From positions 310,001 to 374,000 of the forward strand of contig JAUCSC010000001.1 in assembly GCA_030445265.1 (NCBI GenBank): a stretch of 64,000 bases of DNA. Direction: 5' to 3'. The notes beneath the pieces are model-generated. The model was given only the letters and a program-made list of their open reading frames with translations, was not told the DNA's origin and did no database searches. Below, in pieces: positions 34,964-40,531 of the stretch. The position numbers were made by a program, and so were the translations under genes. This DNA comes from Candidatus Saccharimonadota bacterium. GTDB lineage: Bacteria; Patescibacteriota; Saccharimonadia; Saccharimonadales; Saccharimonadaceae. Position 1 is the first letter of the stretch. Each line of letters begins with the position of its first letter.

Positions 34964-35029
34964 ATGATAGAGCGCAATGCCCTGAAATCATTTACGCTAG
35001 AGGAAAATGTCATTACTATAATCCTATGA
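34964..35029 (+). CDS. candidate leaderless uORF (MIERNALKSFTLEENVITIIL) coupled to rnhB
   Basis: TATACT 34952-34957, 6-nt gap, ATG 34964; stop TGA 35027-35029 overlaps rnhB ATG 35026 (ATGA). Confidence 0.4.
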   Translation: MIERNALKSFTLEENVITIIL

Positions 35030-35940
35030 TACTTGGGATTGACGAAGTCGGACGGGGTGCATGGGCTGGCCCACTGGTGGTTGGTGCTGCTGTGCTTCAT
35101 GAACACATCGATGGACTGACTGACAGCAAACTGCTGACAAAGTCAAAACGTGAAGCGCTCTATGACGTTATCGATACTGCTGCAACCGTCAAGTTGGGCT
35201 GGGTCACCTCAGAGGAAATAGATGCCATTGGCTTAAGTGAAGCGCTCCGCCTAGCAACTGTGCGCGCCGTTGAACAAATCGACGTACCGTACCATGACAT
35301 TATTATTGATGGGACACAAAACTTTCTTATGCATACGACGAAAGGTCAGTACGTGACAACCCTGAAAAAAGCCGATCTGCTTATTCCTACGGTTTCGGCA
35401 GCCGCCATAACGGCGAAAGTGGCGAGAGATCGCTATATGGTTAGTCAATCATCGCTGTATCCACAGTACGGTTTTGACCAGCACGTGGGGTATGGTACAA
35501 AAATGCACCAAGATGCGCTGGCACTCTATGGAGCCACGCCGCTTCATCGTATGTCATTTGCACCACTGAAGGCGCATAACCAATCCGTCGACGTGACGAA
35601 AAAAGCGGCCGGTATCGGTATGCTAGCCGAAAGGGAGGCGGCGTTATATCTCCATGCACAGGGCCACACCATCATTGAGCGTAATTGGAAAACTAAGGTG
35701 TGCGAGGTAGACATCGTATCTGAAAAAAATAATATCTGGTATTTTACGGAAGTGAAATATCGTCGTCAGCCGAGACAAGGCGGTGGCCTGGCGGCGATTA
35801 CTTCGAAGAAACAGCAGCAAATGCGGTTTGCCGCCGATGTTTTCTGTCACTACCGTAAAGATGATTCACACGACAGGCGCCTTATGGCGATTGCTATGAG
35901 TGGAGAAATCCCGGTCGTTGATCTAGTCGTCGAGGTTTAG
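35026..35940 (+). CDS. rnhB: ribonuclease HII fused to C-terminal UPF0102 (YraN-like) domain
   Basis: N-terminal MILGIDEVGRGAWAGPLVVGAAVL; C-terminal ERNWKTKVCEVDIVSEKNNIWYFTEVKYRR is the YraN endonuclease-fold signature. Confidence 0.93.
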   Translation: MILGIDEVGRGAWAGPLVVGAAVLHEHIDGLTDSKLLTKSKREALYDVIDTAATVKLGWVTSEEIDAIGLSEALRLATVRAVEQIDVPYHDIIIDGTQNFLMHTTKGQYVTTLKKADLLIPTVSAAAITAKVARDRYMVSQSSLYPQYGFDQHVGYGTKMHQDALALYGATPLHRMSFAPLKAHNQSVDVTKKAAGIGMLAEREAALYLHAQGHTIIERNWKTKVCEVDIVSEKNNIWYFTEVKYRRQPRQGGGLAAITSKKQQQMRFAADVFCHYRKDDSHDRRLMAIAMSGEIPVVDLVVEV

Positions 35941-38504: not shown

Positions 38505-39206
38505 ATGAATAAGTATAAGCGTCGTCGCTTTGGAGCGGTTCTCGTATTGCTTATTGCTGTTCTTATGGCCGTTGTCACAACAACCAGTCATTCCGAGAAT
38601 GATTCGCGGGCCCCGTCGGTGATTGTATCTGAACCATCCGTGACCTCACCAGCTCTATCGGCACTCGATACGCTCGTCGTCAAAGGCCGGGCGCCAAAGA
38701 CTGGCTATGACCGAGCGCTTTTTTATGATGACTGGAGCAAGATTAATGGCTGCGATATGCGCAATGTTATTTTACACCGTGATCTTACTGAGGTGACGGT
38801 CAATGCCGAGTGCCAGGTAACGCACGGAACCCTGCATGATCCATATACCGGATCGACGATTACGTTTGAGCGCGGAGAATCAACCAGTGACGATGTCCAG
38901 ATCGACCACGTGGTAGCTTTGTCCGATGCCTGGCAAAAAGGAGCACAAGACCTTTCAGCGGACCAGCGTCACCAGCTGGCCAATGACCCGCTTGAACTCT
39001 TGGCAGTTGACGGAAAGACCAATCAACAAAAAGGTGATGGCGACGCTGCTACGTGGCTTCCGCCGAGCAAAGCTTTTCGTTGTGAGTACGTTGCTCGGCA
39101 AATTGCTGTCAAACAGAAGTACTTGCTTTGGATAACGGCGGCCGAACGTGATGCAATGAAAGGTGTGCTGTCAAGCTGTCCGGACCAACGCTTGCCAAGT
39201 CAGTAA
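38505..39206 (+). CDS. secreted/membrane-anchored HNH nuclease (GmrSD C-terminal/DUF1524-like)
   Basis: N-terminal signal/TM; VQIDHVVALSDAWQKGAQ...LANDPLELLAVDGKTNQQKGDGDAATWLPP...CEYVARQIAVKQKYLL. Confidence 0.87.
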   Translation: MNKYKRRRFGAVLVLLIAVLMAVVTTTSHSENDSRAPSVIVSEPSVTSPALSALDTLVVKGRAPKTGYDRALFYDDWSKINGCDMRNVILHRDLTEVTVNAECQVTHGTLHDPYTGSTITFERGESTSDDVQIDHVVALSDAWQKGAQDLSADQRHQLANDPLELLAVDGKTNQQKGDGDAATWLPPSKAFRCEYVARQIAVKQKYLLWITAAERDAMKGVLSSCPDQRLPSQ

Positions 39207-39220
39207 ACGGGCTGTATAAT
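39192..39220 (+). promoter_or_regulatory. nusA promoter
   Basis: TTGCCA (39192-39197)-17 nt-TATAAT (39215-39220). Confidence 0.7.
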
Positions 39221-39241
39221 GAAAGTTGAAGATGCATACAC

Positions 39242-39265
39242 GTCGGCCGGCAGGTCGGCTTTTTT
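39242..39265 (+). terminator. intrinsic terminator/attenuator in nusA leader
   Basis: gtcggcc-ggca-ggtcggc-tttttt: 7-bp stem with two G-U pairs, tetraloop and six Ts, located between the nusA promoter and start codon. Confidence 0.65.
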
Positions 39266-39285
39266 AATCGAAAGGAATGTGCACT

Positions 39286-40407
39286 ATGGATGATATCAAT
39301 ATTAAGCAATTGACGCTCGCGGTGCGCACTATTGCTGAAGAAAAGAACCTACCCGAAGAAACAGTCATGGCTATCATTGAGCAGGCTATTGCTGCTGCGT
39401 GGCGCCGAGATAATGGCGAGCGTGATCAAGAAGTTCGCAGTGAGCTAAATGTTAATGATGGCTCAGCCATCGTCTATGTTGCCCGCGAAGTAGTCGATGA
39501 AGTCGGTAGTGAGGCTCATGAAATTAGTCTTGATGAAGCCCGTAAGATAAAGAAGGATGCTGAGATTGGTGACATCATCGAAGAAAAATTTACCGTCACC
39601 TCATTCGGACGTGTGGCTGCTCAGACAGCCAAGCAGGTGGTGCTCCAACGTCTGCGTGAAGCTGAACGCGAGATTATCCTCGAAGAATATGCTGATAAGA
39701 TTGGCACAGTAGTCAATGGCACCGTGCAACGTGTCGAACCTCGGGTTGTTCGCGTTGAGATCGCCAAAGCCAGTGGTATTATTCCGCAAAGTGAACAGAT
39801 CCAAGGCGAGTACTATAGCGTTGGTAGTCGTATCAAGGTCTACATCAAAGACATTGAGCGCGATAACCGCGGGCCTCAGCTGATTCTTAGCCGCGGCAAC
39901 GAAGCGTTTGTCGAATATCTCTTCCGCCAAGAGGTGCCTGAACTAGAAAGCGGCGCCGTTGAGATTAAAGGTATTGCTCGTGAAGCAGGTCGCCGTACAA
40001 AACTTGCCGTTGCCAGTACTGTACCGGGAGTTGATCCTGTCGGTACGTTCGTCGGCGGTCATGGAACTCGTGTCCAGGCGGTCATGAACGAAATTGGTGA
40101 TCAGGAAAAGATAGACATCATAACCTATGATAAAGATATCATCCAGTTTATCAAAAATGCCCTGAGCCCTGCCGAAGTGAGTAAGGTTGAGATCAAGGAA
40201 GACGATAAGCGAGCTATCGTTCACGTTAACGAGGACCAGCAATCGATAGCCATCGGACGTGGTGGCCAAAACGTTCGGCTTGCTAGTCGTCTGACGGGCT
40301 ATGAAATCGATATTGTACAGGTGACTGCCACCGCTAAACCGGCTGCTCCACGGAAAAACATTGAAGACAGTCTGATTGACGCTTTAGAGAACAACGACAG
40401 CGAATAA
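39286..40407 (+). CDS. nusA: transcription termination/antitermination factor NusA
   Basis: S1 domain and KH domains (REAGRRTKLAVAS, DPVGTFVGGHGTRVQAVMNEIGDQEKIDIITYD, IAIGRGGQNVRLASRLTGYEIDI). Confidence 0.95.
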   Translation: MDDINIKQLTLAVRTIAEEKNLPEETVMAIIEQAIAAAWRRDNGERDQEVRSELNVNDGSAIVYVAREVVDEVGSEAHEISLDEARKIKKDAEIGDIIEEKFTVTSFGRVAAQTAKQVVLQRLREAEREIILEEYADKIGTVVNGTVQRVEPRVVRVEIAKASGIIPQSEQIQGEYYSVGSRIKVYIKDIERDNRGPQLILSRGNEAFVEYLFRQEVPELESGAVEIKGIAREAGRRTKLAVASTVPGVDPVGTFVGGHGTRVQAVMNEIGDQEKIDIITYDKDIIQFIKNALSPAEVSKVEIKEDDKRAIVHVNEDQQSIAIGRGGQNVRLASRLTGYEIDIVQVTATAKPAAPRKNIEDSLIDALENNDSE

Positions 40408-40423
40408 TCACGACATTTATAAA

Positions 40424-40450
40424 TTAGCACTCCATTGACCGGAGTGCTAA
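40424..40450 (+). promoter_or_regulatory. CIRCE operator (HrcA site) upstream of clpC
   Basis: Exact TTAGCACTC-N9-GAGTGCTAA. The N9 contains TTGACC (40435-40440); 17 nt later is TATACT (40458-40463). Confidence 0.95.
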
Positions 40451-40531
40451 TTTTTGTTATACTTTTCTGTAGAGAGTTAGTGAAAAGCAAAATGCTTGCG
40501 CTTTCGATATAGGAGGATAGATAATAGATTT

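Follow-up and report, generated by a model that had tools for sequence, protein, structure and literature searches.

The question raised by this locus was whether a short hairpin followed by a run of T, which lies between a promoter-like sequence and nusA, ends the transcript of the upstream nuclease-like gene or belongs to the transcript of nusA itself. The locus was taken from the window, i.e., the whole 64,000-nt stretch that was analyzed (positions 310001–374000 of a 646-kb genome in a single contig), whose relatives are Candidatus Saccharibacteria. The element probably acts as a transcription attenuator of nusA adjacent to its promoter, and the likeliest mechanism is negative feedback by NusA. 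The predicted anatomy of the attenuator, taken separately, is very well supported.

Promoter, hairpin and nusA in the window

An earlier note had placed the promoter at 39192–39220, the hairpin with its T6 at 39242–39265 and the nusA ATG at 39286, and all of these positions were correct (Table 1). The promoter TTGCCA-17-TATAAT, predicted to be of sigma-70 type, agreed with the consensus at 11 of 12 positions and was the best promoter-like site between 36000 and 44000. Its -35 box lies within the 3' end of the nuclease gene, whose stop codon is at 39204–39206. The hairpin has 7 pairs, including two G.U.

Table 1. Positions of the nusA leader and neighboring features, numbered within the window
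Feature	Position	Strand	Remarks
Upstream nuclease-like gene	38505..39206	+	GmrSD_C domain; outside the element, 3' end overlaps the -35 box
-35 box TTGCCA	39192..39197	+	nusA promoter; lies within the final codons of the nuclease gene
-10 box TATAAT	39215..39220	+	17-nt spacer from the -35 box
Predicted transcription start (+/- 2)	39228..39228	+	inferred from the position of the -10 box
Terminator hairpin GTCGGCC-GGCA-GGTCGGC	39242..39259	+	conserved G.U wobble within the core CGGCC/GGTCG
T6 (U-tract), predicted termination point	39260..39265	+	read from the sequence
Shine-Dalgarno AAAGGA of nusA	39271..39276	+	9 nt 5' of the ATG
nusA, regulated gene	39286..40407	+	373 aa; NusA_N, S1, KH and KH domains

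Within the window, the numbers of promoter-like sites (11 vs. 8.2 +/- 3.2 in shuffles) and terminator-like sites (11 vs. 7.3 +/- 2.7) were near chance, and the fold of the leader was no more stable than that of shuffled sequences (z = -0.32). The window sequence by itself was therefore rejected as proof, and the case rests on comparison across relatives.

Elsewhere in the window, a single ORF at 35026–35940 (+) appears from its translation to join ribonuclease HII to a C-terminal YraN-like nuclease domain.

Conservation and spread of the leader

Eighty nusA loci from named genomes, mostly of Saccharibacteria, were compared with the window, and a hairpin with a T-run was found 5' of nusA at all 80 as well as in the window. 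The T-run directly followed the stem in all 81 family-level leaders; in over half of them it was an unbroken run of six T, and in the remainder it was shortened or interrupted. The leader consensus was AGTACATT-CCGGCC-GGCA-GGTCGG-A-TTTTTT. Five of the seven pairs were invariant across the 71 distinct leaders, the stem core CGGCC/GGUCG with its internal G.U being present in 71/71, and the two outer pairs covaried (UA to GC in 11, CG to UA in 4). Paired cells made up 99.4% of this alignment vs. 95.0% in shuffles, and slid alignments came nowhere close. The hairpin loop varied in sequence and length. Since the outer pairs covary and the core pairs are invariant, both the RNA stem and its core sequence are, as judged from the alignment, under conservation.

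A -10 box matching at least 5 of 6 positions lay within 20 nt 5' of the stem in 77/79 leaders, vs. 31/315 control stretches taken further upstream. When a promoter of at least 8/12 matches followed by a terminator was required, 72/78 nusA leaders passed (the upstream sequence of L067 and L086 was too short for the promoter test), vs. 4/159 leaders of other genes at the same loci; the promoter-hairpin-nusA order, for which the earlier note had proposed a check in relatives, is thus conserved. The distance from the -10 box to the CCGGCC stem was 14–15 nt in 47/79 leaders, and mostly 22 nt in the subclade that includes the window. TTGCCA with 17-nt spacing recurred in the near clade (e.g., L047, L052, L069 and L080), which may partly reflect conserved coding sequence. 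In relatives, the place equivalent to the predicted start is the A of AGTACATT, ~7 nt past the -10 box. The same motif was considered as a general start-site motif and rejected, as 17 genomes contained only 8 copies of TATAAT-N3-9-GTACATT, 0–2 in each, of which 3 were the nusA leader, and a regulon was not indicated.

A covariance model was built from the nusA leaders and run on 61 whole genomes (E ≤ 0.1). Forty-two of these relatives matched, each exactly once, and all 42 matches lay directly 5' of nusA; matches at nusA are expected of a model built on nusA leaders, and the result is the absence of other matches. In a sample of the phylum, 17/380 genomes matched the model, all of them in the same order as the window, and those that could be checked matched at nusA. 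Where members of the order did not match the model, a promoter was still followed by a hairpin of related stem and a T-run. A simple scan recovered the arrangement in 37 of 40 leaders of the order and missed it in three. A recognizable hairpin was not found in the nusA leader of G041, and in G039 the hairpin lay ~120 nt 5' of the nusA ATG.

In other orders of the same class, the stem was often GTCGG...CCGGC with a T-run. Outside the class, a strict scan found a terminator-like hairpin in 27/62 leaders vs. 1.6 in shuffles, and further hairpins with a large loop or a broken stem were visible by eye. From these comparisons, the general arrangement is widespread in the phylum, and only the Saccharibacterial side has the CGGCC/GGUCG stem. 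Recurring nusA leader stems of other kinds, GGTGAG...CTCACC or CCCACC with a T-run, were seen in other Patescibacteria classes (L252, L254, L263, L266, L269, L272 and L273).

Gene context, proposed mechanism and alternatives

RimP was found in 0/21 genomes. In the window's genome, infB lies 288 kb from nusA (G000:637449–639203 vs. nusA at 349286). The gene 3' of nusA was clpC at 75/80 loci, and clpC of the window has its own promoter and an HrcA-type operator. As RimP was not found, infB is distant and clpC has its own promoter, the leader would serve nusA alone, and of the classical rimP-nusA-infB set only nusA would remain under it. Rho was likewise found in 0/21 genomes above the curated cut-off. 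Matches well below it were weak and are probably homologous F1-ATPase subunits. With Rho not found in these 21 genomes, the lineage seems to rely on intrinsic termination, which must then bear most of the load.

Between nusA and clpC, a perfect CIRCE-type inverted repeat, TTAGCACTC-N9-GAGTGCTAA, was observed at 40421–40453 (+). The clpC -35 box TTGACC lies inside its loop and the -10 box TATACT at 40458–40463, making HrcA the probable repressor of clpC. L005, L006, L007, L016 and L019 have a similar CIRCE-type repeat 3' of nusA. In L198, L200, L203 and L204, which belong to other orders of this class, the promoter of nusA itself overlaps a CIRCE-like repeat whose loop contains TTGACA, and nusA in these lineages may be under HrcA (heat-shock) control besides the leader hairpin.

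In the proposed mechanism, RNA polymerase would start at about 39228, and the transcript would form the 7-bp hairpin after ~14 nt (~7 nt in most relatives), so that the stem begins near +15 of the predicted start (near +8 in most relatives) and is followed by six U. A fraction of the polymerases would stop at the U-tract, releasing an RNA of ~36–38 nt in the window and ~31–33 nt in relatives, and the rest would read through into nusA. The 7–14 nt of RNA 5' of the stem are too few to form an antiterminator, and any regulation would thus have to act through the transcription machinery. The share of polymerases that read through would most likely depend on a protein that acts on them, and NusA itself is the most likely one, being the product of the gene, an aid to hairpin formation and pausing, and a factor that autoregulates in B. 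subtilis. More NusA would give more hairpin-dependent termination and therefore less nusA mRNA. NusA helps suboptimal hairpins to form and aids pausing at terminators (PMC8060035). The best reading is negative feedback by NusA, by analogy with the B. subtilis precedent and with genetic evidence from E. coli.

NusA-dependent terminators are expected to have a suboptimal hairpin and/or an interrupted distal U-tract. In these leaders one internal G.U was conserved, and the U-tract was shortened or interrupted in a minority. The hairpin energies did not show the weakness expected of such terminators: the median was -11.6 kcal/mol both for the leader hairpins and for 3' terminators at these loci. 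Mean energies (-12.1 vs. -10.6 kcal/mol) gave no support to the idea of a leader hairpin weaker than other terminators.

A more specific form of the NusA loop, possible but on balance doubtful, is that of a promoter-fused NusA sensor. As the hairpin and U-tract are complete within ~31–38 nt of the predicted start, termination would be decided at about the time when sigma leaves and NusA joins the polymerase, and the leader would read the rate of sigma-to-NusA exchange, and so free NusA, with no other sensing RNA. Were this true, the invariant G.U stem would be tuned or specifically recognized, and the leader would be a minimal form of nusA autoregulation, kept in a lineage where Rho and RimP were not found.

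The same attenuator could respond to an effector other than NusA, such as NusG, polymerase speed or nucleotide levels, or an antitermination protein of a kind not yet known. In B. subtilis, NusG too acts as a factor of intrinsic termination (PMC8060035). The hairpin shows no special weakness, and its strong sequence conservation could mark the binding site of another protein. We hold such an effector to be unlikely, given that the element is present in single copy and is linked to no gene but nusA, that the product of nusA is a known hairpin-termination factor, and that B. subtilis offers a direct precedent.

Control of mRNA stability or translation by the hairpin as a 5' UTR element, in which the U-tract would be incidental or would pair with the A-rich ribosome-binding site, is quite improbable. 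The hairpin does lie near the predicted 5' end, and the minimum-energy fold of the window pairs the U-tract with the Shine-Dalgarno region, but this extended fold was no better than shuffles. The distance from stem to ATG ranged from 24 to 101 nt across leaders, yet the T-run always stood directly after the stem.

The earlier note had allowed that the hairpin might merely terminate the upstream nuclease gene, nusA then being transcribed from another promoter or by read-through. In the window, this co-directional gene stops 35 nt short of the hairpin, and at 59/80 loci a relative of the GmrSD_C nuclease-like gene was found upstream of nusA. This arrangement is what a plain terminator would call for, but at the 21/80 loci where the nuclease was not found the hairpin was unchanged. 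The nearest upstream ORF was on the opposite strand at 19/78 loci, with at least 247 codons at seven of them (L043, L048, L050, L100, L102, L108 and L110), and the hairpin sequence was kept there too, which argues that it is not the terminator of the upstream gene. Moreover, ordinary terminators are not conserved letter for letter, and a promoter lies 5' of this one at near-fixed spacing. In the window, the ATG of nusA follows the T-run after only ~20 nt and the -35 box lies within the end of the nuclease gene, leaving hardly any space for another promoter. The plain-terminator reading is very improbable, being at odds with the near-fixed spacing, with the single copy per genome found only at nusA and with retention beside divergent genes. 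The same three findings strongly support the other claim of the note, that the hairpin lies within nusA's own transcript and would terminate it. As an observation on the neighbor itself, the nuclease-like protein has an N-terminal hydrophobic stretch before its GmrSD_C domain, and it is a conserved neighbor of nusA.

That the terminated RNA of ~31–38 nt is a small RNA with targets elsewhere is scarcely credible: most relatives share its 5' end AGUACAUU and a hairpin with a U-tail is typical of small RNAs, but the 5' segment of the window leader (GAAGATGCATACAC) is not conserved, and the locus is single and always beside nusA.

Known nusA leaders

The predicted promoter and terminator before nusA, conserved almost to the letter, strongly suggest that in Saccharibacteria and many of their relatives nusA limits its own expression as is known from Bacillus and E. 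coli. The classical leader precedes rimP-nusA-infB, so it had been unclear which product it serves; a terminator leader before nusA alone, where RimP was not found and infB is elsewhere, points to NusA as the controlled product. The leader also offers a short natural construct for testing control by NusA, and is a conserved regulatory RNA element without an Rfam match in a large, streamlined and little-studied phylum. A search of Rfam 15 with the window and 13 related leaders gave nothing credible (isrD, E = 0.56, 17 bits vs. a cut-off of 37), and a paper on Saccharibacterial attenuation was not found among the papers searched.

By kind, the element belongs with the leader attenuators of nusA operons: a promoter lies 5' of an intrinsic terminator, both lie 5' of the nusA unit, and the terminator is conserved beyond chance and independently of the upstream neighbor. 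It is not a member of the rimP-leader family, since it does not lie 5' of rimP in a rimP-nusA-infB operon, its stem is not of the GGGc(...)gCCC form, and it has no Rfam match. The rimP-leader has been described as the most ubiquitous attenuator, with NusA proposed as effector (Naville and Gautheret 2010, PMC2965389). Both are short intrinsic terminators in the leader of a nusA operon, with an unusually conserved stem and no visible antiterminator. They differ in that the rimP-leader stem, GGGc...gCCC, has a G-rich 5' arm, whereas the stem here is CCGGCC...GGUCGG with a conserved G.U; in that the first gene there is rimP, whereas here RimP was not found and nusA stands alone; and in that the hairpin here begins at ~+8 to +15. 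Stems of GGG...CCC type, like that of the rimP-leader, occur in some other Patescibacteria classes (L223, L227 and L254). A GTGGG...CCCAC-T6 stem, close to the published GGGc...gCCC motif, was observed in L223, L227 and L228 of such classes. New relative to known leaders are an invariant stem of its own kind, the lack of an Rfam match and predicted termination only ~30–38 nt from the predicted start.

In B. subtilis, NusA controls its own expression by stimulating termination within the 5' leader (PMC12288461, citing Mondal 2016). That leader was tested experimentally, whereas here NusA dependence is inferred from sequence and precedent; it is 180 nt long and upstream of rimP (PMC2965389), and the one described here is ~60 nt.

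In the E. coli metY-rimP-nusA-infB operon, NusA represses its own operon (Nakamura 1985, Plumbridge 1985, cited in PMC2965389), and two terminators lie upstream of rimP (PMC6511841). The likeness is in NusA self-repression, found there and proposed here, and in the terminator upstream. The E. coli operon is a long multigene unit that includes a tRNA gene and RNase III sites and is read from several promoters, whereas the Saccharibacterial unit consists of one gene and one promoter adjacent to a single terminator.
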